A DNA stretch of 64,000 bases from Piezodorus guildinii (taxonomy: Eukaryota > Arthropoda > Insecta > Hemiptera > Pentatomidae): positions 88,422,021 to 88,486,020 of the forward strand of contig CM041297.1 in assembly GCA_023052935.1 (NCBI GenBank), given 5' to 3'. Position numbers and translations under genes: made by a program. The stretch's first letter is position 1; the number at the start of each line of letters is the position of its first letter. The notes beneath the pieces are model-generated. The model saw nothing but the letters and a program-made list of their open reading frames with translations. It was not told the origin of the DNA and did no database searches. Positions 16,371 to 51,633 of the stretch are shown piece after piece.

Positions 16371-16920
16371 TGCTACGGTCAAGACAATGACGGGTGGACC
16401 ACGCCTGGAGGGGCCTAGATGAGGCTAGAGACTTCTGGACCTGGACAGTCCTCAAAGTGCCTGGAAAGGCCCACCGCCTTACCTGCGCCCGGGTCTAGAA
16501 GATTCGGCCGTGGTACAAATAGCGGTCCCCTGAGCCTGGGTGAGTCAGTCTTAATCCGGCTCAACAAGCATCTGGGATGTATCAGTGAACAGTGACAGTG
16601 AACAACTCGTGACAGTGTGACAGTGTAGTGAAACTGTGTGTCAATATTGTGATAATCGGTCGGTGGGAAATTAGAAGACTGTAGTTTATATATAATTTAT
16701 AGTTGTAAGTCTTAGAATAAGTCTAGCCGATTGTAAGTAGTTTATTCGTTAGGAATACCTCATTTTATATGTATACTGTTTAGTAGTAAGCTGGTAATTA
16801 CATTATTATTGTTAATATAGTGGTTAGTAATCCCTTTGTATTTGTACATTCTGTATTTAATAGATATTTGTAATTTGTAAACTGGAGTAGTTCATTTCTC
16901 ACACCCCGTAGCCCGTAACA
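16371..16920 (+). repeat. 5' LTR of the gypsy element
   Basis: It begins TGCTACGGTCAAGACAATG and ends CCCGTAGCCCGTAACA, with TG...CA termini. It appears identical to 22439-22988. TATATATAA near 16688 could serve as a promoter element, but the transcription start cannot be read from sequence alone. Confidence 0.95.
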
Positions 16921-16923
16921 ATT

Positions 16924-16941
16924 TGGTGTCAGAAGTGGGAT
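16924..16941 (+). other. Primer-binding site, tRNA-Leu-like
   Basis: TGGTGTCAGAAGTGGGAT begins 3 bases after the 5' LTR. It is complementary to a tRNA 3' end of the form ATCCCACTTCTGACACCA, which resembles tRNA-Leu acceptor and T-arm sequences. The isoacceptor is an inference from memory. Confidence 0.75.
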
Positions 16942-17004
16942 CATTGTAAATGGTTATAATTTTGGTTTTCTTGTTTTTGTAATTATTGGGCTACTGTGTG
17001 GAAA

Positions 17005-20000
17005 ATGACTTCTCAGAGTGTTAGACTGAATGATTTAAAAGTTGCAGACTTAAGACGGGAGTTAGAAGAACGAGATCTGGATACTTCCGGAACGAAATCA
17101 GTACTGCAACAACGCTTGCGCCAATTTTTTGTTGATTCCGGGGAAAATCCAGACGAGATTACGTTTGAAAATGATTTCAGTAAGTTGTCTGCAACTTTTA
17201 AAACTGAATTAGGTAATGTAGAAAAGAAGTTAGGAAATGTAGAAAAGAAGTTAGGAAATGAGTTAGATAATGTAGAAAAGAAGTTAGGAAATGAGTTAGG
17301 TAATGTAGAAAAGAAGTTAGGTAATGAGTTAAGTACTGTTAAAAATACATTGGAGGCCAAGTTAGGCAATTTAGAAACTAAGTTAATGGAGAGTGTAGAT
17401 AATAAGTTAGCTGATGTAGAATCTAGATTAGGAGAAAAAGTCGATTCAGTAGAAAATGAACTTAGGGTAAGAATAGAAGCTCTAGAAGAACGTATGAGCA
17501 ACCCACCGACAATCGACACCGACCAACCCTCTGAGAGAAGCCCTCACAACACCATTCCCTCCGCCAATGCTGGGATGCCACCAACGCACAACACCATCCC
17601 ATTGTTCGACGGGAAGACGCCGTGGGAGGACTACATGACTCTCTTCGAGACAGCGGCTTCGATCCACGGGTGGTCAAAGGAGACGCAAGCATCAGCGTTG
17701 TGCCTAGCCTTGCGTGGAGACGCCTTAGGAGTGCTACAGGGGATGCCCATGTCGGAGCGGTGCAACTACAGTGAGCTGATGAAAAGACTGGAGATGCGTT
17801 TCGGCCATCGCCACATGGACCAACTATACCGTTCCCAGTTAAAGAACAGGGTCCAGAAGACCAACGAGACGCTGCAGGAATTTGAAGCAGATATCGCCCG
17901 GCTAGTGAGGAATGCCTACCCAACGGTCACCGACGACGTCTACGAGAGCTTGGCTATCGACAAATTCCTGGATGGACTTCGAGACCCGGAAACCCAACAG
18001 GCAGTGAAACTCGCACGACCTAAAACTTTGGGCGATGCATTGTCGCAGGCCATGGAATTCGAGGCTGTCAGGCAGTCAGTCCGTGGACATGCACGAGTTC
18101 GAGCGGCAGAAGTGGAGCCTAACGCGGCCCCCACCATCGAGGACATAGTAGCAAAGGTTTTAGAAGCCCTCAGGACCCGCAAAAAGGAGATACGCTGTTG
18201 GAGCTGCGGTCAACTTGGACACCCCAGAAGCAAGTGTCCTACCAGGAAGCCGGAAAAAGCCACAGGAAAACTAAGGAGGGTTGATGGGAAGGGGCAACTG
18301 TCAACCCGTAGCATCGAAGGCCCCAGGGTCGCCGTGAGAATCGCGACAATAGGGAGCAAGACAAATAGTTTTTATGTGGATGGAATGGTGAACGGGCAGC
18401 TGCGGAGTTTTCTGCTGGATACCGGCGCAACCATGACAATACTGAACCCGAAGGCAGTTAACGCTAAGAAGATATCACCTACCACTTGGGCGTTACGGAC
18501 AGCCACAGGACAGCCAGCCGAGGTCTACGGGGAGACAGTTGCCACTTTCTTCATCGGGGGCCAACGTCTAGAGCACCGCGTTCTCGTGGCGAAAATAGAC
18601 GAGGAAGTCATCTTCGGCATGGACTTGATGATCAAATACGGGATCAAGCTGGACATGTCGAGAGGTGTGATGACGCTGGGAGACGAAGAGGTCATCCTTC
18701 GGCAGGGAAAGGACCTCTATGCACGAGTACTCCTACTAGAAGACACCACTTTACCTGCACGGAGTCAAATTCTGACGCATGGGACGATCAATGGACGACT
18801 ACCGGAGGGTCAATGTCTTCTACTTGAACCTGGGAAGCACGAGGAGCAGGAAGTCGGACGCGGTGTTCTGGTTGCAAGGTCTCTCATCAAGGTCGGACAT
18901 ACCACCCCAATCCGACTGATGAATCTGAACAGCTTCCCGGTGACACTAAAGAGAGGAACACCAGTCGGAGAATGTACGGCCGCTACCTCAGTAGTCCGAC
19001 AGCTACAACGCAACCCCACCGAGCAACGAGGACTACCCGAAGAATTAAAAGGATTCGTGGAGGAATCATGCAGAGAACTTTCGCCTGAACAGAGCGAAAT
19101 CGTGAAGAGATTGATTACCCGATGGCAGGACGTTTTCGAGATCAGTTCAGGACCACGGGGTAGAACGAACATCGTCCAGCACAAAATTGACACCGGGGAT
19201 ACAAAGCCCATCCGACAGATCCCGAGGAGGCTGCCGCTAGCTAAACGAAAGGATGCCGAGGAGATTATTAAGGATATGGCGAATGATGGTGTCATCGAGC
19301 CCTCGAGTAGCCCATGGATGTCTCCTGTCGTACTGGTGAAAAAGAAAGATGGGACGACAAGATTCTGCGTAGATTACCGTCTTTTGAACAACGCCACGAA
19401 GAAGGACAGTTACCCACTCCCAAGGATTGACGACACGCTGGACACACTAGAGGGTTGCAAACTATTTTCTACCTTGGATCTCCGCAGTGGATATTGGCAG
19501 GTTGGATTGGCACCGGAAGATAAGGAGAAGACGGCATTTTCAATCGGCACTGGCCTCTGGCAATTTACGGTAATGCCATTCGGGCTTTGCAATGCACCTG
19601 CAACGTTCGAGAGGCTGATGGAAAGCGTCTTAAGAGGCCTTTCTTGGGAGATATGCCTGGTTTACTTGGACGACATCATTGTACTGGGAAAATCCTTCAC
19701 TCACCATCTGGAGAATCTGGAGCGGGTCTTCGAACGGCTGCGTGCAGCTAATCTAAAACTGAACCCGAAGAAGTGCAATCTCTTCCGAAGGCAAGTCAAC
19801 TACCTGGGGCATGTTGTATCAGACAACGGAGTTGCTGTTGACCCAGAGAAGATTACAGCGATCACCAATTGGCCAGCACCTCGAGATAAGCACCAAGTGA
19901 GAAGTTTCCTCGGGCTCTGCACCTACTACAGGAGGTACGTGAAAGGATTCGCCAACATCGCAAAACCTCTTACCAGGCTCACTGAGGAAAAACGGACTTT

Positions 20001-22458
20001 CCTTTGGGATCGCGAGTGTCAGGCTTCATTTGAGGAGTTAAAGAAGAAATTGAGTAGTGCGCCTATTCTAAGCTATCCACGTCCCGAGGGCAAGTTCATT
20101 CTTGACACAGATGCCAGCAACACTGCTATTGGAAGCGTCCTTTCCCAACTCCAAGACGGGGAAGAAAAGGTTATTGGGTACTTCAGCAAAGCACTGTCAG
20201 CTCCAGAACGCAACTACTGTGTCACAAGGAAAGAGCTTCTGGCAGTGGTTAAGTCCATAGAGCACTTTCATAAATACCTGTATGGAAGAAGATTTCTACT
20301 GAGAACGGACCACGCAGCTCTAATGTGGCTGCTGCGATTCAAGTCACCGGAGGGACAAGTTGCACGGTGGATCGAGCGCCTTCAGGAATATGACTTCGAA
20401 TCTGCTCATCGTTCTGGAACGAGTCACCGGAATGCGGATGCGCTCTCAAGGAGACCCTGTGACGGAGAATGCAAGCATTGTTCTCGACAAGAAGAAAAGC
20501 AAGCAACAGTGTTGCGGACTACGGTCGTTACCGACGGTTGGCAGGACACACAACTGGCAAAGGAACAGGACGAGGACCCGGACTTGAAACAAATAAGGGA
20601 ATGGAAGCTATCAGGCCAAAGGAGACCAAGCTGGCAGGATGTTGCTCCAATGTCGAAAAATATAAAAACCTATTGGGCTCAATGGAACTCCATTCTACTG
20701 GACAAAGGTCTGCTGAAACGAGCATTGGAGAACACAGAGGGAGATCAGCGGAGACTACAGCTCATCGTACCAAAGATTAAAGTGCCCGAAGTACTGAGGG
20801 AATTACATGATGGAGCATCTGGTGGCCACCTTGGAGTTCACCGGACATTAGAAAAGGTTCGTGAACGCTTTTACTGGGCAAACCTCAAGGACGATGTGTT
20901 AGATTGGTGCCGGCGGTGTGCAACTTGTGCCGCCTCTAATGGACCGATAAGGAAAAAGAAGGCACCTATGAAGAAATACAACGTAGGAGCACCATTCGAG
21001 AGAATAGCGGTAGACATCGCTGGCCCTTTTCCTGTGACAGATAATGGCAACCGATATATTCTCGTGGACATGGACTATTTTTCAAAGTGGGTGGAAGCTT
21101 ACGCCCTTTCGAATCAGGAGGCCGCCACGGTTGCAGATGTTCTCGTGAAGCAGCTCGTCAGTCGGTTTGGGGTGCCCATGGAACTTCATGCTGACCAAGG
21201 AAGAAACTTTGAGTCGGCAGTCTTCACCAGGATGTGCGAGGCTCTAGGAATACGGAAGACCAGAACGACGCCTCTTCACCCTCAGTCCGATGGCATGGTA
21301 GAGCGCATGAACAGGACGATGGGTCGATATTTGGCCAAGGTAGTTTCTGACCATCAGCGAGACTGGGACCAATATCTTCATCTGTTCCTGCTAGCCTATC
21401 GTAGTTCAGTCAATGAAACGACAGGGCAGACCCCCGCCAATGTCGTGTTCGGTAGAGAACTACGCTTGCCTTGCGATCTGAAATTCGGTTTCAAGCCTGA
21501 TGAGGAGGTCGCCGGAGAAGACTACGTCACGAACCTACGGAAGCGAATGAACACTATTCACGAGAAGGTTCGCACAAACATCCAGGGAGCAAGTGACAGA
21601 ATGAAGGAGCGTTACGACATCAAGGCAGAGAAAGGTGGTTTCCAACCTGGAGACTTGGTCTGGCTACACGATCCTCGAAGAAGGCAAGGCTACTCACCGA
21701 AGCTTCAAAACTCCTGGGACGGACCGTATGAGGTCATCAAGAGGATCAATGATGTCATCTATAGGATCAGGAAGCAGCCCAAAGGAAAACCCAAGGTAGT
21801 CCATTTCAACCGATTGGCTCCATACATGGGAAACCATGGCCCTACAGAGGAACAGCAAGTGAGGAACCTCACCGACAAGGACCTAACTCCCCATCCTAAG
21901 GCGCCAGACTCCCTTAGGGTAACGCAGACAGTTTACAGAGACATATTCTCGTTACCGGTAGACTATGCTCTAGCACATTGTGTCGCCGAACATCTGAGGA
22001 ATTCCCGGGGGATTGCGACGGTCTTCAGGAAGAAGTTCGCTGGAATTGAAGAGCTGGAACGCCAGGGACCAAGAGTTGGGAAGACTCTCCATCAAGAGCA
22101 TGAAGGCCGGCACCTGTTTTACTTGGTTACCAAGAGTTCATCAGAGCAGAAGCCGACATACGACACACTGCGCCGGAGTCTTGACGACCTGCGGAGAAAG
22201 CTTCTGGAACTGCGTGTCACCAAGCTCGCCATCCCGAAGTTGGGTTGTGGATACGATGGCCTGGAGTGGAGGATTGTCAGGAACATTGTAGAAGAGACGT
22301 TCGCCAACTCTGGAGTCATCATAACGGTATGCACGTTCAACCCCTGGAAAGACAAAACACCTACATCGGAGGAAGATCAGCATCGCTCAGCTTCTGCAAT
22401 CTGTGCTCTGGGGCAGAGCACGTCTAAGGAGGGGGTAGTGCTACGGTCAAGACAATGA
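17005..22458 (+). CDS. Gag-Pol polyprotein with N-terminal SAP-like domain and C-terminal TARG1-like macrodomain
   Basis: Single uninterrupted ORF of 1,817 residues from the ATG at 17005. In order: a SAP-like DNA-binding motif (about 6-42), a coiled coil of NVEKKLGNEL-type repeats (about 68-150), Gag, a CCHC zinc knuckle (C398, C401, H406, C411), protease DTGAT (D472), reverse transcriptase YLDD (887-890), RNase H (D1034), an HHCC integrase zinc domain (from H1268), integrase core D1337, D1397, E1433 (DDX35E) and a GPY/F module (1573-1575). After these comes about 150 residues (1640-1787) with the macrodomain signatures DIFSLPVDYALAHCV, YLVTK and LGCGYDGLEW. K1710 and D1751 match the spacing of human OARD1/TARG1 catalytic Lys84 and Asp125. 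Gag and Pol share one frame, so no frameshift is needed. The stop codon lies inside the 3' LTR. The macrodomain may remove or bind ADP-ribose; that role is inferred. Confidence 0.93.
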   Translation: MTSQSVRLNDLKVADLRRELEERDLDTSGTKSVLQQRLRQFFVDSGENPDEITFENDFSKLSATFKTELGNVEKKLGNVEKKLGNELDNVEKKLGNELGNVEKKLGNELSTVKNTLEAKLGNLETKLMESVDNKLADVESRLGEKVDSVENELRVRIEALEERMSNPPTIDTDQPSERSPHNTIPSANAGMPPTHNTIPLFDGKTPWEDYMTLFETAASIHGWSKETQASALCLALRGDALGVLQGMPMSERCNYSELMKRLEMRFGHRHMDQLYRSQLKNRVQKTNETLQEFEADIARLVRNAYPTVTDDVYESLAIDKFLDGLRDPETQQAVKLARPKTLGDALSQAMEFEAVRQSVRGHARVRAAEVEPNAAPTIEDIVAKVLEALRTRKKEIRCWSCGQLGHPRSKCPTRKPEKATGKLRRVDGKGQLSTRSIEGPRVAVRIATIGSKTNSFYVDGMVNGQLRSFLLDTGATMTILNPKAVNAKKISPTTWALRTATGQPAEVYGETVATFFIGGQRLEHRVLVAKIDEEVIFGMDLMIKYGIKLDMSRGVMTLGDEEVILRQGKDLYARVLLLEDTTLPARSQILTHGTINGRLPEGQCLLLEPGKHEEQEVGRGVLVARSLIKVGHTTPIRLMNLNSFPVTLKRGTPVGECTAATSVVRQLQRNPTEQRGLPEELKGFVEESCRELSPEQSEIVKRLITRWQDVFEISSGPRGRTNIVQHKIDTGDTKPIRQIPRRLPLAKRKDAEEIIKDMANDGVIEPSSSPWMSPVVLVKKKDGTTRFCVDYRLLNNATKKDSYPLPRIDDTLDTLEGCKLFSTLDLRSGYWQVGLAPEDKEKTAFSIGTGLWQFTVMPFGLCNAPATFERLMESVLRGLSWEICLVYLDDIIVLGKSFTHHLENLERVFERLRAANLKLNPKKCNLFRRQVNYLGHVVSDNGVAVDPEKITAITNWPAPRDKHQVRSFLGLCTYYRRYVKGFANIAKPLTRLTEEKRTFLWDRECQASFEELKKKLSSAPILSYPRPEGKFILDTDASNTAIGSVLSQLQDGEEKVIGYFSKALSAPERNYCVTRKELLAVVKSIEHFHKYLYGRRFLLRTDHAALMWLLRFKSPEGQVARWIERLQEYDFESAHRSGTSHRNADALSRRPCDGECKHCSRQEEKQATVLRTTVVTDGWQDTQLAKEQDEDPDLKQIREWKLSGQRRPSWQDVAPMSKNIKTYWAQWNSILLDKGLLKRALENTEGDQRRLQLIVPKIKVPEVLRELHDGASGGHLGVHRTLEKVRERFYWANLKDDVLDWCRRCATCAASNGPIRKKKAPMKKYNVGAPFERIAVDIAGPFPVTDNGNRYILVDMDYFSKWVEAYALSNQEAATVADVLVKQLVSRFGVPMELHADQGRNFESAVFTRMCEALGIRKTRTTPLHPQSDGMVERMNRTMGRYLAKVVSDHQRDWDQYLHLFLLAYRSSVNETTGQTPANVVFGRELRLPCDLKFGFKPDEEVAGEDYVTNLRKRMNTIHEKVRTNIQGASDRMKERYDIKAEKGGFQPGDLVWLHDPRRRQGYSPKLQNSWDGPYEVIKRINDVIYRIRKQPKGKPKVVHFNRLAPYMGNHGPTEEQQVRNLTDKDLTPHPKAPDSLRVTQTVYRDIFSLPVDYALAHCVAEHLRNSRGIATVFRKKFAGIEELERQGPRVGKTLHQEHEGRHLFYLVTKSSSEQKPTYDTLRRSLDDLRRKLLELRVTKLAIPKLGCGYDGLEWRIVRNIVEETFANSGVIITVCTFNPWKDKTPTSEEDQHRSASAICALGQSTSKEGVVLRSRQ
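17205..17335 (+). repeat. Tandem coding repeats (coiled coil)
   Basis: Near-identical units of 21 or 33 bp (GTAGAAAAGAAGTTAGG core) are repeated inside gag and encode NVEKKLGN(EL) heptad-like units. Their DNA-level identity suggests recent expansion, so unit number may vary between copies. Confidence 0.85.
22426..22438 (+). other. Polypurine tract of the gypsy element
   Basis: AAGGAGGGGGTAG sits directly before the 3' LTR. It is still within the Gag-Pol reading frame, which crosses the LTR boundary. Confidence 0.8.
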
Positions 22459-22988
22459 CGGGTGGACCACGCCTGGAGGGGCCTAGATGAGGCTAGAGAC
22501 TTCTGGACCTGGACAGTCCTCAAAGTGCCTGGAAAGGCCCACCGCCTTACCTGCGCCCGGGTCTAGAAGATTCGGCCGTGGTACAAATAGCGGTCCCCTG
22601 AGCCTGGGTGAGTCAGTCTTAATCCGGCTCAACAAGCATCTGGGATGTATCAGTGAACAGTGACAGTGAACAACTCGTGACAGTGTGACAGTGTAGTGAA
22701 ACTGTGTGTCAATATTGTGATAATCGGTCGGTGGGAAATTAGAAGACTGTAGTTTATATATAATTTATAGTTGTAAGTCTTAGAATAAGTCTAGCCGATT
22801 GTAAGTAGTTTATTCGTTAGGAATACCTCATTTTATATGTATACTGTTTAGTAGTAAGCTGGTAATTACATTATTATTGTTAATATAGTGGTTAGTAATC
22901 CCTTTGTATTTGTACATTCTGTATTTAATAGATATTTGTAATTTGTAAACTGGAGTAGTTCATTTCTCACACCCCGTAGCCCGTAACA
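22439..22988 (+). repeat. 3' LTR of the gypsy element
   Basis: It is 550 bp and appears identical to the 5' LTR. Its first 20 bases encode the last codons of the polyprotein and its TGA stop (22456-22458). It is followed by the TTAT target duplication. Confidence 0.95.
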
Positions 22989-32066: not shown

Positions 32067-33351
32067 TCGGGCTGATGCGAAATTAATGCAGGTTTCCTCT
32101 ATTGCAATATCTTAATTCCAATTGTGTAAACAAAGCTAATCCTAACATTGATCATTATTATACCAAAACAAACCTTATCTAATACCCTCTCTTTCACCAT
32201 GAATTTGTTTAGTAAAATCGTTTTGTTCAGTGTGTTCAAAGGTCTTGAATCGAAAATGTCAAAGTGCGATTTTCGTCAAATTTATTTTTACGAATTTAAA
32301 TTAGGGCGCAGCGCTGCGCAAACGGCTCGTAATATTAATGAAGTGTGGGGTCAGGGGGCTATTAATGAGTGCACGGTGCAGCGTTGGTTCCAGAAGTTTC
32401 GCAGAGGAGATTTCGACCTCGAAGACAAGGAAGGTCGGGGCCGTCATCTTGCTCTGGACAACGACCAGCTGAGGTCAAAAGTGGAAGAAGACCCAACCAA
32501 AACCACACGAGAAATGGCGGCGAAATCGGTGTGAACCAATCCACAGTTGTACGCCACTTGGAAGCAATTGGTAAGGTAAAAAAGTTGGCCAAGTGGGTGC
32601 CACACCAATTAAACGACCACCAAAAAAATCGCCGCTTTGAAATCTGCTCCATGCTTGTGACACGCAATAAAAATGATCCATTTCTCGATCGCATTGTGAC
32701 GTGCGATGAAAAATGGATCTTATACGACAACAGAAGGCGTTCTAGCCAATGGCTGGGCAAAGATGAACAACCAAAACCTTTCCCGAAGCCCAACCTGCAC
32801 CCAAAAAAGGTTATGGTCACAGTTTGGTGGTATAATGCTGGTGTTATTCACTACAGCTTTCTCAATCGAGGTGAGACTATAACTGCTGACAAGTACTGTC
32901 AAGAAATTGACAGCATGAATCAAAAATTGCAACGTCTTTGCCCAGCATTGATGAATCGGAAGGGGCCGATCCTGCTCCACGATAACGCCAGACCACACGT
33001 TGCACAACCAACGCTTCGACGACTGCACGAGTTGGGCTACGAAGTTCTCCAACATCCACCTTATTCACCTGACCTCTCTCCTACAGACTTCCACTTTTTC
33101 AGGCATCTGGACAACTTTTTGAGGGAGAAAAATTTTCAAAACCAGGACGACATTGAAAATTCTTTTCGTGATTTCATTGAGTCCAGGGATTCGGATTTTT
33201 TTTCTGGTGGAATAAGAAAGCTTGTTGAACGTTGGCAAAAGTGCATTGATTCAGATGGAAATTACTTTGATTAAATATATATGGTTAAAGTAAAGATATG
33301 GCGTATTTACAATACCTACTAAAAACCTGCATTAATTTTGCATCAACCCAA
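32067..33351 (+). mobile_element. Full-length mariner (cecropia-like) in a host intron
   Basis: The 1,285-bp element has inverted ends of about 29 bp (left TCGGGCTGATGCGAAATTAA; right, inverted, TTGGGTTGATGCAAAATTAA) and TA duplications at 32065-32066 and 33352-33353. Length, ends and transposase match the mariner family. The protein is strikingly like Hsmar1/SETMAR-type sequences, placing it near the cecropia subfamily (family knowledge, not a search). It lies antisense in the host gene's second resolved intron, next to the 3' splice site. Confidence 0.93.
32256..33274 (+). pseudogene. Mariner transposase with one frameshift
   Basis: The ATG at 32256 begins MSKCDFRQIYFYEFKLGRSA, the N-terminal HTH domain. 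The frame shifts near 32515-32525, by what looks like a one-base loss, and continues in another frame to TAA at 33272. The catalytic triad is present: D in VTCDEKWILYD, D in LLHDNARPHVAQ, and D in YSPDLSPTDFHFF, as DD34D. WVPHQL and the YFD-like end are also conserved. Apart from the shift, the roughly 340-residue protein is nearly complete, suggesting a fairly young copy that can no longer make transposase. Confidence 0.9.
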
Positions 33352-47194: not shown

Positions 47195-47582
47195 TGTGAT
47201 GGGCCTGATGTGTGTGAGGGAGTGAGGTTATAACACACAGCTGGTGGGAGCAAAGAGGTTATGTGAAATGGATTTGTCACTGCCTCAAACATGTTTATAT
47301 TTTAGTTTTCTTTATATTTAATTGAGGGTCATTTTTATTTATTATTTTATTTTCTGTGTTTTATGATAGTAGAAAGATTATTTTATTTTACAGTGGCAAA
47401 TCCATTGCAACCTCTCACCAGCTGTGGTTTTTGATCTATCTGGATTAGTGTGTGCTCCTCATATTGCTTTCCTTTTTTTTATATTCTTTTATTCTTCATT
47501 TTATTCAACTGTCTGAACAATAAAAGAACCATTTGAACCCGTAGTGCCAGGCTGTAGTCATTTCGCCCTCACCTCCTCTAAA
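47195..47582 (+). repeat. 5' LTR of the CsRn1-type element
   Basis: 388 bp, identical by eye to 51634-52021. It contains AATAAA at 47519-47524 as a likely polyadenylation signal. Confidence 0.93.
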
Positions 47583-47583
47583 G

Positions 47584-47597
47584 TGGTGACCCCGACG
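47584..47597 (+). other. Primer-binding site, tRNA-Trp
   Basis: TGGTGACCCCGACG, one base after the LTR, is complementary to the conserved tRNA-Trp 3' end CGTCGGGGTCACCA. CsRn1-clade elements are known to use this primer. Confidence 0.85.
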
Positions 47598-47663
47598 GTG
47601 AGTGTTGAACTATTTTTTTTCTTCTCTTTCTCCTTTTTTTATTTTTCCCTCAATATCTTTATA

Positions 47664-48497
47664 ATGCCGTTTGACTTATTAACGCTGGACTTAGAGGACA
47701 AGAAAGTGGAGGTGGAGTCAGCATCGGCCCCCAATGCGCTGGCGAGATTGCCATCTTTTTATAGAGAAGAGCCAGATCTGTGGTTCATTCAAGCTGAGGC
47801 GGTATTCAGCTCATGTAAGATCAGCAATAGTAAGAGCAAATTTCAGCTGATTATCGCCCAGCTTGATTTTCAGACTCTTCGACAAGTCGCAGATCTGGCT
47901 CGTAATCCGCCTGTTAATGAGCCCTATGAAAGGTTAAAAGAGCGGCTACTTTCCAGCTTCGGGCAGTCAGATAGCTGGAAGATGAAGAAACTCCTGGAAG
48001 AGCAGAAATTGGGCGATCAGAGGCCTTCCCAATTTCTGCGAGAGATGCAGCAGCTGGCAGGAGAGAAGGTCCCGGAGGACATGCTTAGTACTTTGTGGCT
48101 CCAGGGGCTACCTGAGGGAATGCAGGCGGCTTTGGCTGCTACCGATCATACTGATCTGACCAAGTTGGCCCGCATCGCAGATAAAATAGCTGAGATTCAG
48201 CAACCCCCAGGTAATCCGATTATGGCTTATCAGCCGGAGCCAACTCCGGGGCCTTCAAGAAGAGATGGAGGAGACATAGGTGCTGCCATCGAGCGCCTGA
48301 CTGCCGAAGTAGCCGCTCTCAAAGCGCAAATGGGGGCCAGGACAAGTCGGCGAGACAGCGGATCGCCTAGTCGGAATCGCAGGGGCTCTAGAAGCAAGAG
48401 TAGACGGCGTCTCTGTTTTTACCACGAACGCTTCAGAGATAAGGCGACCAGATGCCGTCAGCCCTGCGACTGGAAACCGGCTAGGGCTTTAAACTAG
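47664..48497 (+). CDS. Gag of the CsRn1-type element
   Basis: 277 residues from the ATG at 47664 (MPFDLLTLDLEDKKVEVESA). The frame is open further upstream into the LTR, but this is the first ATG after the primer site. Central Gag motifs include ARLPSFYREEPDLWFIQAEA, LLEEQKLGDQRPSQFLREMQ and LWLQGLPEGMQAAL, typical of capsid regions of this clade. An SR/RS-rich basic stretch precedes C251, H254, C264, C268 (CX2HX9CX3C), the unusual CHCC box of CsRn1-like Gag instead of CCHC. It ends ALN-stop at a slippery site that would give the Gag-Pol fusion. Confidence 0.9.
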   Translation: MPFDLLTLDLEDKKVEVESASAPNALARLPSFYREEPDLWFIQAEAVFSSCKISNSKSKFQLIIAQLDFQTLRQVADLARNPPVNEPYERLKERLLSSFGQSDSWKMKKLLEEQKLGDQRPSQFLREMQQLAGEKVPEDMLSTLWLQGLPEGMQAALAATDHTDLTKLARIADKIAEIQQPPGNPIMAYQPEPTPGPSRRDGGDIGAAIERLTAEVAALKAQMGARTSRRDSGSPSRNRRGSRSKSRRRLCFYHERFRDKATRCRQPCDWKPARALN

Positions 48498-48532
48498 TCA
48501 TAGCGGCGAACAAGGCGGGTCCCGTCGCTATG
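48488..48532 (+). promoter_or_regulatory. -1 frameshift signal: TTTAAAC slippery site plus hairpin
   Basis: TTTAAAC (48488-48494), in the gag frame as T TTA AAC, immediately precedes the gag TAG. The pol frame is -1 relative to gag and open from 48485. Four bases downstream, CATAGCG (48499-48505) can pair with CGCTATG (48526-48532). Heptamer, phase, overlap and hairpin fit canonical programmed -1 frameshifting. Confidence 0.8.
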
Positions 48533-51500
48533 GCTAACAACCGTCGACTCTTCGTCTCTGACAGAAAGTCCGGGGTCAGATATCTGGTGGATACTGGAGC
48601 CACCCTATCTGTCTACCCGGTGACGAACAGGACGAAGTCCACCGAGGAGTTCATGTTGTATGCTGCCAATGGGACGCCCATTCCAACGTATGGCACCATT
48701 GTCCAGAACCTTGATCTGGGGCTCCGGCGGAAAATGTCATGGCGATTTTTCACTACAACATGATGGTAGATCTCGCCGGGTGCCAGCTAGTGGACCAGAG
48801 GACGGGGCTGACATCTAGAGGTAAATTGGCGAAGGTACCGGTGCCCACCATCTGCTCAGTACCTGCAGGAGAATGGTACTCCGCCCTGCTGCGCCGGTAC
48901 CCTTCTGTGACTCAGCCTTCGTCCTTTATGACAGAACCGAAGCACGATGTCGTCCATCACATTGAGACCAGGGGAGCCCCAGTCACCGCGAGAGCCCGCC
49001 GCCTGCCACCGGGAAGATACAACACCGCCAAGAAGGAGTTTATGCAGATGATGGATGAAGGGATCTGCAGACCGTCGAATAGTCCTTGGGCCAGTCCGCT
49101 GCACATCGTCGAGAAGAAGGATGGAGGTATCCGGCCCTGCGGCGACTACAGGCAGCTCAACGCTAAGACGGTCCCGGACAGATACGCTGTGCCCAACTTG
49201 GCGGATTTCAACGTTAATATGCACGGTAAGAAGATCTTCACAACCTTGGACCTTAACCGTGCATATTACCAGATTCCGGTGGCAGAAGAGGATATTCCGA
49301 AGACCGCCGTCATCACACCTTTCGGCCTCTTCGAGTTCCTCCGTATGTGCTTTGGTCTCAGGAATGCATCGCAAACCTTCCAACGGTTCCTAGACCGTGT
49401 GCTTCGAGGGTTGGACTTTGCCTGGTGGTTTCTCGACGATATTATCATCGGCTCAAGAGATGAAGAGGAGCACAAAGCACATATGGAGGAAGTGCTACGG
49501 CGGCTGCAGGATCACGGCCTCACGGTGAACCTGACGAAGTGTGTCTTCGCTCGTCAGGAGGTCGAGTTTCTGGGACATAGGGTGAACTCCTCCGGCATCA
49601 GCGCCCAGTCAGCGAAGGTGGAGGCCATAGTTTCCTATCCTAGGCCGGCTACTATCAAGGACCTGCGGCGTTTTCTGGGTATGTTTAACTTTTATCGCCG
49701 TTGCATACCCAGAGCGGCGGAAATGCAAGCTCCGCTCAACAGGTTCCTTGCTGGAGCGAAGAAGAATGACAAGAGGCCAGTAGAATGGAACATCAAAGCC
49801 GTAGAAGCGTTCGAGCGCTGCAAGACTGCCATCAAGAACTCCGCGGTACTGGGACATCCTAAGGCTAACGCTGAGCTTGTCCTGGTATGTGATGCCTCCA
49901 GCACAGCTATGGGAGCAGTCTTGCAGCAGAAGGATGGCGACGTTTGGCGGCCTCTTGGATTTTTCTCCAAGGCTCTCGCTCCAGCGCAACAGAAGTACGC
50001 CACGTACGACAGGGAACTATTGGCCATCCATCGCGCCATCAAGCACTTTCGCCATTACCTAGAGGGGAGACATTTTGCTGTCTGGACGGACCACAAACCG
50101 CTGGAACAAGCGTTCTATCAGAAGCCAGAGACAGCGACGCCCATGCGGATTCGGTTGGTGAACTTTATCAGCCAGTTCACAACCGACATCCGCCACGTAC
50201 CCGGGGAAGACAACGCAGTTGCCGACGCGCTCTCGAGGGTTGAGGACATCGACTGTACCGAGGACTATGAGCGCCTTGCGTCCGAGCAGCAGAAGGATCC
50301 GTCGGTTTCTGGGCTTCAGAAGAACAGCCGTCTTCAGCTTCGCTGGATCCAGCCTCCCGGTAAAGCCTCGTCTGTCCTCTGCGAAACCTCTACGCCTCAA
50401 GCGCGACCATACGTTCCTGAGTCCATGCGAGAAGAGATCTTCCACCGCCTGCATGGGCTCAGTCACCCCGGGATACGGACCTCGAGGCGGTTGGTCACGC
50501 AGCGTTTCTTTTGGCCAGGCATGAACGCCGACGTCTCGAGGTGGGCACGCTGCTGCATTCTCTGCCAGCGATCGAAAGTTGTCCGTCACACAGTGACTCC
50601 TCCAGGTACCTTTGCACCCAGCGGAAGGATGGAGCATATCCACGTGGACATCGTTGGGCCTCTGCCACCCTCCAACGGCATGCGTTATTGCCTCACGATG
50701 ATAGATCGATTCACGCGTTGGCCTGAGGCGTGCCCGCTAGAGGAAATTACAAGCACCAAGGTAGCAGAAGCAATAGTGGGCACGTGGATTTCCCGTTATG
50801 GTACGCCTGCAAGGATTACTACCGACCAAGGGCGCCAGTTTGAGTCAGACCTCTTTATTAGCCTCACTCGCGTCCTTGGTATCCAGAGGAGCAGGACTAC
50901 GGCGTACCATCCTCAGTCCAACGGGTGCGTGGAGCGGTGGCATAGGTCCCTTAAGGCATCCCTAAGGGCAACGTTGGGAAATATGGGGTGGACTAAGGTG
51001 CTACCCACCGTCCTTTTGGGTCTTCGGTCAGCGGTGAGAGAAGATGTTGGTGCCAGCGCTGCGGAAATGGTCTTCGGCCAACCACTTCGCCTCCCTGGAG
51101 AATTTTTTGAACCCTCTGAACGGCGGGAGGACGCGGAGGCGACATTGAAGACGCTGAGGGAGGCGATGAAGATGCTCCGGCCAGCTCCGCACCGCAGCAG
51201 TACGGCTCGCACCTTTGTTCACCGCGACCTCAAGGACTGCACCCACGTTTTCCTTAGGGATGACACCGTCCGACGCCCACTGACGCCGCCTTACACCGGC
51301 CCTTATCAGGTTCTCTCGAGGGAGGAGAAGACATTCAAGCTGCTGCTACCGACAGGACCGAAGACCGTCTCCATGGATCGCCTGAAGGTAGCACATCTTC
51401 TCCCGGGACCGGCAGAGGACAGCGGCAACAGGGATCTGCCTACTCCATCGCCCTCTGGTGTGGCCAGCGGCAAGTGCGATCACCCCACTCCTTCTCCCAC

Positions 51501-51621
51501 ATCGGCGGACTCCGGACCTTCAAATGACCTCGACTCAGAACAGCAGGACACATCACCGCCTTATCGCACCCGGTCTGGTCGGGTGGTAAAGCCTAAGGTT
51601 CGTTTCTGTGCCGATGTCATT

Positions 51622-51633
51622 GGGGGGGAGTGA
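51622..51633 (+). other. Polypurine tract of the CsRn1-type element
   Basis: GGGGGGGAGTGA lies directly before the 3' LTR. Its last three bases are the pol stop codon. Confidence 0.8.

Follow-up and report, generated by a model that had tools for sequence, protein, structure and literature searches.

A TARG1/OARD1-type macrodomain at the C-terminal end of a young Ty3/gypsy Gag-Pol from Piezodorus guildinii

TARG1 (also OARD1 or C6orf130; PDB 4j5q, 4j5r, 4j5s, 2l8r) is a stand-alone macrodomain protein of the ALC1-like class. Its substrates include Glu/Asp-linked ADP-ribose, phosphate-linked ADP-ribose at nucleic acid ends and thymidine adducts, and it was reported to interact with PARP1 (PMC7050489, PMC8501950; papers are cited by accession, for the passages concerned). 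In its catalytic dyad the Asp deprotonates the Lys, which then attacks the ribose (PMC9411070), and it was shown that a K84A variant was unable to rescue DarT toxicity (PMC8501950). We have analysed a window of Piezodorus guildinii DNA (the whole stretch studied, 64,000 nucleotides) which contains a young Ty3/gypsy element with long terminal repeats (LTRs), and have found that the C-terminal part of its Gag-Pol, behind the integrase GPY/F module, is a TARG1/OARD1-type macrodomain. The domain resembles TARG1 in sequence, in fold and in the Lys/Asp dyad, but is fused to a retroelement integrase, belongs to a clade of its own and carries a Ser-Arg-Gly loop where TARG1 mostly has Gly-(Ala/Lys)-Gly. 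The next most similar class, in sequence and in fold, is the macrodomain of DarG from bacterial DarTG, which according to PMC9411070 keeps the Lys and is without the Lys/Asp dyad, whereas the domain of the window has both residues.

Captured domains in retroelements are already known, and macrodomains in retroviruses have precedent. Fish epsilon-like endogenous retroviruses have macro domain open reading frames (ORFs), a finding credited by PMC4977317 to Basta et al. 2009 (J Virol); here too a macrodomain was acquired by an LTR retroelement, but the sentence in PMC4977317 describes additional ORFs, whereas in the window the domain is fused to the integrase of an insect-type Ty3/gypsy element. 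The macrodomains of coronaviruses, alphaviruses and rubella virus are likewise carried by mobile genomes, and their ADP-ribose processing is held to counter PARPs (PMC7050484). LTR elements of bdelloid rotifers have also captured enzymes (GDSL, DEDDy), but as separate ORF3s and of other families, with no macrodomain in the parts of PMC5408684 covered here. Chromoviruses have an extra domain at the same integrase end, theirs being a chromodomain and that of the window's element a predicted enzyme. Among the papers listed by a literature search there was no Ty3/gypsy element fused to TARG1 or to a macrodomain, most subscription papers and preprints being outside its scope, and a predicted TARG1-type eraser fused to the integrase and kept across insect elements appears to be undescribed in the literature searched.

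The kept dyad and the kept fold, together with the fusion to the integrase end, suggest that an eraser is delivered to the site where integration takes place; the macrodomain is on balance probably an ADP-ribosylhydrolase that the integrase would carry to the integration complex, where it would strip ADP-ribose added by host PARPs. To our knowledge, there are hardly any known cases of LTR retrotransposons using enzymes for counter-defence, and we know of no established role of ADP-ribosylation as an arm of antitransposon defence in insects. With a clade of elements whose integrase has retained a predicted TARG1-type eraser, the idea of such a defence becomes directly testable.

Identity of the domain and its catalytic dyad

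The initial annotation proposed a TARG1-like macrodomain at 21922..22365, behind the GPY/F module in the same frame. The single open frame (16996-22458, with protease, reverse transcriptase (RT), RNase H and integrase intact) was confirmed and the macrodomain was found where it had been placed, with its edges corrected to about 21928-22344. Its best match was TARG1 (E 1.2e-32, far above chance), followed by DarG (6e-6), and a profile of eight sequences gave TARG1 at E 4e-47 with the next class at 1.5e-8. A structural match to macrodomains was also found, the fold being that of TARG1. Sequence, fold, copies and tree all support the proposed identity. With 17.8 bits the domain fell under the 22-bit cut-off of the curated Pfam Macro model, and routine annotation can therefore miss it; the DarG equivalog of NCBIfam (NF048014) gave 43.7 bits against a cut-off of 250, and the domain does not qualify as a DarG. 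The features at this end of the frame are as follows.

21649 to 21825, forward strand: integrase C-terminal SH3/p58_C (GPY/F) module (SH3_Tf2-1 E 3.4e-8, Integrase_p58_C E 7e-15)
21826 to 21927, forward strand: integrase-macrodomain linker, 102 bases in 28 of 28 copies read, conserved less than its neighbours
21928 to 22344, forward strand: TARG1/OARD1-type macrodomain (sequence similarity, fold, dyad)
22003 to 22011, forward strand: Ser-Arg-Gly loop, corresponding to human TARG1 Gly-Ala-Gly, residues 41-43; typical of element-type copies
22132 to 22134, forward strand: catalytic lysine, equivalent to TARG1 Lys84 (alignment)
22255 to 22257, forward strand: catalytic aspartate, equivalent to TARG1 Asp125 (alignment)

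The Lys of the YLVTK motif and the Asp of GCGYD, both named at the outset, are present and stand 41 codons apart; in the alignment to human TARG1 chains they fall on Lys84 and Asp125 (numbering of PMC9411070); in PMC7050489 the second dyad residue is named Glu125, where the aligned TARG1 chain has Asp. Of 24 dereplicated element-type rows, 22 have the Lys, P0060 and P0089 showing Arg instead, and 23 have the Asp, with Glu in P0089; both residues are universal among 106 other TARG1-like rows. This conservation across diverged elements served as a proxy for a codon-level test of whether the dyad evolves neutrally. Before dereplication (49 element rows) the Lys was present in 46 and the Asp in 47 of the 48 rows with a letter there. 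P0041, which stops short of the dyad, P0045, P0047, P0050, P0067 and the Molorchus rows except P0016 stood outside both sets used for the dyad counts. The Ser-Arg-Gly loop precedes the first helix of the structural model; its Ser and its Arg are each kept in 22/24 element rows, the Arg occurring in only 2/106 of the other TARG1-like rows.

The replacement of the lysine in two rows would also suit a macrodomain that is a reader and not an eraser, binding ADP-ribosylated chromatin and steering integration there, as chromodomains behind GPY/F are held to do in chromoviruses. The macrodomain does take the place of the chromodomain in Pol, after GPY/F (chromodomain position from PMC5408684), and the ALC1-like class includes readers besides erasers (PMC7050489). 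Nonetheless, a reader would have no need of a catalytic dyad, which all but a few of the element rows keep, and in the relative P0038 the domain lies before the integrase instead of after it. A reader role thus appears unlikely to us, and a hydrolase is preferred.

Copies, relatives and descent

The view of an intact ORF in a young element was borne out. The LTR element, of 6.6 kb, lies at 16371-22988; its two LTRs, of 550 bp each, start with TG, end with CA and are 100% identical, and TTAT flanks the element on both outer sides as a target-site duplication. A DNA search of the 1.2-Gb genome gave 493 candidates, 40 of which were scored, all at 100% (rounded) over 466 bases; 28 of these places were read, including the window copy (L005), the copies being thus picked as best matches and not as the full range of the family. 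As had been expected of other copies, all 27 further ones carry the domain. Its 417 bases are open in each (10 identical, one differing silently and 16 by a single amino acid) and start 102 bases behind a GPY/F module that is 97.7-99.4% identical to that of the window, and the copies are spread over contigs C1, C2, C3, C5, C6 and C7. The stretch from integrase to stop was open to the same stop in six of eight copies, the window's included, and disrupted in two, once inside the integrase and once just past the macrodomain; a gap in the integrase alignment was seen in 3/28 copies. The 5' LTR was located in 14 of 18 copies checked, and the own LTR pairs of these 14 had no mismatches in 10 (one over 331 bases only) and one to three in four, which marks the family as recently active.

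The same copies refute the explanation that a host TARG1 gene merely adjoins, or was mis-joined with, a retrotransposon. Two Macrosteles gene models do bear OARD1-like names, but in the window a single open frame runs between identical LTRs, the arrangement recurs in the 27 further copies on six contigs and in other sources, and Macrosteles has a separately annotated TARG1 (P0053) that groups with cellular TARG1, leaving this explanation with practically no chance of being correct. A search of the genome for family PF01661 gave two short matches, and since the element copies were also unlisted it says little on a host TARG1.

The 3' LTRs of the 27 other copies (L001-L004, L006-L008, L026-L045) were 90.7-96.9% identical to window 22439-22988, with 99.8-100% identity in macrodomain coding DNA, and several LTR variants seem joined to one coding body, perhaps through recombination. 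Protein-level selection was considered as the source of a near-identical domain beside 3-9% different 3' LTRs and was rejected, as silent sites are equally unchanged; exchange between LTR variants and shared coding parts, along with the choice of best matches, better explains the identity. Differing by 0 or 1 in 417 bases, the copies are uninformative for the ratio of nonsynonymous to synonymous substitution (dN/dS).

In other species, a short-protein search gave five relatives, three with integrase modules, and a longer-protein search gave 34. Precomputed Pfam lists show one or more Pol domains of retroelement type in 33 of the latter and a zinc finger only in the remaining one (P0033). Of these 34, 24 come from the longhorn beetle Molorchus minor and two are labelled Erysiphe pulchra. 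The latter Pol proteins (P0009 and P0012), fungal by their label, group with insect elements and may represent either insect contamination or transfer. A profile search gave 939 TARG1-like proteins; among the 120 matches listed were cellular OARD1 of flies and mosquitoes and further element-type pieces of Brassicogethes, Aromia, Pyrocoelia, Callosobruchus and, probably, Leptinotarsa and Diabrotica. Fourteen of the 24 element rows used in the tree have Pfam integrase domains (own or precomputed), P0046 has an integrase end visible in its flank, and the other nine, including both rows of the leafhopper Macrosteles, were assigned via linker, zinc-finger tail or clade, their label being partly inferred. 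The two Macrosteles quadrilineatus proteins (P0003 and P0004), named ADP-ribose glycohydrolase OARD1-like, have an element-like linker and fall in the element clade. They are thus probably fragments of elements that received the name of a host gene by mistake, and annotators should be cautious, as 'OARD1-like' models of this kind probably derive from elements.

In P0038 the macrodomain (residues 817-955) lies between RNase H, which ends at 694, and the integrase H2C2 domain, which starts at 1061; this architecture rests on a single contig, with the macrodomain recognised by similarity and not by Pfam, and its RT-RNase H part is 60% identical to that of the window element. In P0074, a protein of 251 amino acids (aa), a partial integrase H2C2 domain is joined to a macrodomain of TARG1 type, the latter grouping with cellular macrodomains of this type; the protein may be a further capture or a gene-model join. 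No relative was confirmed by a single-protein scan of viral contigs or in the prokaryote genome contigs scanned, and an alignment scan of viral contigs gave 15 more distant TARG1/DarG-like loci (L011-L025, 31-38% identity).

In a tree of 69 rows, 23 of the 24 element rows and P0067 formed one clade (98/92) with P0050 (unplaced) as its neighbour, and the cellular TARG1 of flies, mosquitoes, flea, leafhopper, fish and mussel fell outside it. The clade persisted (99/91, 20 rows) with eight of the 15 viral-contig domains as outgroup, one of which, L011, fell among animal TARG1 (fish and mussel). The C-terminal form of the macrodomain was likely gained once; as elements may move between hosts, its presence in two insect orders alone gives no date of the gain. 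P0038 lay outside the element clade in both trees, among cellular and unplaced TARG1 rows. An independent second capture in P0038 was considered and not adopted, as the approximately unbiased (AU) test did not reject a single all-element clade (p 0.51) and the Ser-Arg-Gly loop is shared. An RT tree was left out of account, as none of its branches was starred.

In a comparison with ten relatives, macrodomain identity was 86% for P0008 and 48-63% for the remaining nine. The corresponding values are 98% and 66-91% for RT (seven others with RT), 92% and 63-85% for the integrase core (nine with a core), 81% and 23-70% for the protease, and 54% and 33-43%, where alignable, for the linker (21826-21933). 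The macrodomain is thus conserved more than the linker and less than RT and integrase. Furthermore, 41 columns are conserved at 90% or more among the element rows, and in 25 of them the other TARG1-like rows reach this threshold with an identical letter (P 1e-8 for the overlap in conserved positions, with kinship of the rows uncorrected). Its lower identity than RT and integrase core and the absence of the lysine from two rows could be read as signs of a mere passenger, captured long ago by chance and tolerated without function. Against this, many diverged elements form one clade in which the dyad is kept, the domain is open in every other copy read, and it is conserved better than the flanking linker, so that a passenger seems very improbable.

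Proposed action at the integration site

For an eraser at the integration complex, the macrodomain would have to be a catalytically active ADP-ribosylhydrolase and to remain attached to the integrase after processing; its substrate would be ADP-ribose carried by the element's proteins, by cDNA ends or by chromatin in the vicinity, and the benefit would be an escape from host ADP-ribosylation. The integration site is proposed as the place of action since gaps and exposed DNA ends occur there, and since in vitro work showed PARP1-3 to modify the terminal phosphates of DNA and TARG1 to undo this (PMC8501950). PARP1 has itself been linked to the retroviral integration gap, with conflicting results (PMC7050484), and a natural, predicted integrase-tethered hydrolase might serve to probe PARP roles at retroelement integration sites.

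Several points weigh against the proposal. The dyad lysine is lost in P0060 and P0089, the latter also having Glu for Asp. PARP1 has been reported as both helping and hindering retroviral integration (PMC7050484), and given this conflict the removal of ADP-ribose need not benefit the element. In Drosophila without PARP-1, eight mobile elements were significantly changed, five up and three down, with indirect causes left possible by the authors (PMC7712786). Moreover, when P0008 and P0038 are set aside the macrodomain shows 51-63% identity versus 74-91% for RT and integrase core, about the pace of the protease; such faster change fits a host-facing part and also looser constraint.

A different eraser would act in the cytoplasm before integration, its substrate being ADP-ribosylated Gag or element RNA with ADP-ribose on its 5' phosphate. 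CCCH zinc fingers, which are often RNA-binding, stand directly behind the macrodomain in some relatives (P0012, P0014, P0034 and Molorchus P0016, the last three under model cut-offs), the window's element being without one. TARG1 also strips ADP-ribose from the terminal phosphates of nucleic acids, and transposon-derived or viral RNAs were proposed to be marked by ADP-ribosylation (PMC7050489). However, the visible Pol neighbour of the domain is the integrase (RNase H and integrase in P0038) and never Gag, and we regard cytoplasmic action as unlikely. A finger, or a tail resembling one by eye, was also seen in the flanks of P0017, P0042, P0043, P0044, P0048, P0049, P0060 and P0067.

Returning to the hydrolase carried by the integrase, a wider history can be entertained, doubtful as we hold it. 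Insect Ty3/gypsy integrases might long have been armed with a TARG1-type eraser against an antitransposon defence by host ADP-ribosylation, directed at integration complexes, cDNA ends or target chromatin. The eraser would have been kept across hemipteran and beetle elements, with a zinc finger added in one branch and P0038 representing a second uptake or a move across the integrase.

Layout of the element and other features of the window

The LTR pair, the target-site duplication, the Pol order protease-RT-RNase H-integrase and the GPY/F module place the element in Ty3/gypsy (Metaviridae). Its remaining features are listed below.

16371 to 16920, forward strand: 5' LTR, 550 bp, identical to 22439-22988; TTAT directly before
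17005 to 22458, forward strand: Gag-Pol frame with in-frame ATG at 17005; the ORF listing opens at 16996 with GTG
17026 to 17130, forward strand: SAP domain at the Gag N-terminus (PF02037 E 9.5e-12), residues 11-45 counting from 16996
18376 to 18630, forward strand: aspartic protease (Pfam gag-asp_proteas E 3.9e-10)
19336 to 19815, forward strand: RT (Pfam RVT_1 E 3.5e-37)
20005 to 20391, forward strand: RNase H (Pfam RT_RNaseH_2, RT_RNaseH)
20767 to 20940, forward strand: integrase zinc-binding H2C2 domain (Pfam E 8.3e-20)
21010 to 21282, forward strand: integrase catalytic core, rve (Pfam E 1.1e-14), residues 4-94 of translated 21001-21900
22426 to 22438, forward strand: polypurine-rich stretch directly before the 3' LTR, translated in frame
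22439 to 22988, forward strand: 3' LTR, 550 bp; TTAT directly after

Between integrase and 3' LTR no other ORF of at least 120 aa was found that could be an env frame, and the element does not class as an errantivirus; the macrodomain occupies the stretch where env would stand. Pfam gave no chromodomain, Macro being the sole match up to E 1 in 21841-22455. The Gag-Pol stop codon sits 20 bases within the 3' LTR, and the relatives P0005 and P0006 share the protein ending over the polypurine-rich stretch (KEGAVLR), which probably acts as the priming tract. The Gag part after the SAP domain and a repeat-rich stretch matches Retrotrans_gag and then, weakly, a zinc knuckle (Pfam). The direct repeats, at 17165-17461, have a spacing of 12 to 33 bases, and their protein has weak Pfam matches to coiled-coil families.

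Elsewhere in the window, a second gypsy-type element (47544-51633) has separate Gag-like and Pol frames and an integrase, with no macrodomain, and an open frame at 32369-33274 resembles, as judged by eye, a mariner-type transposase with an odd N-terminus.

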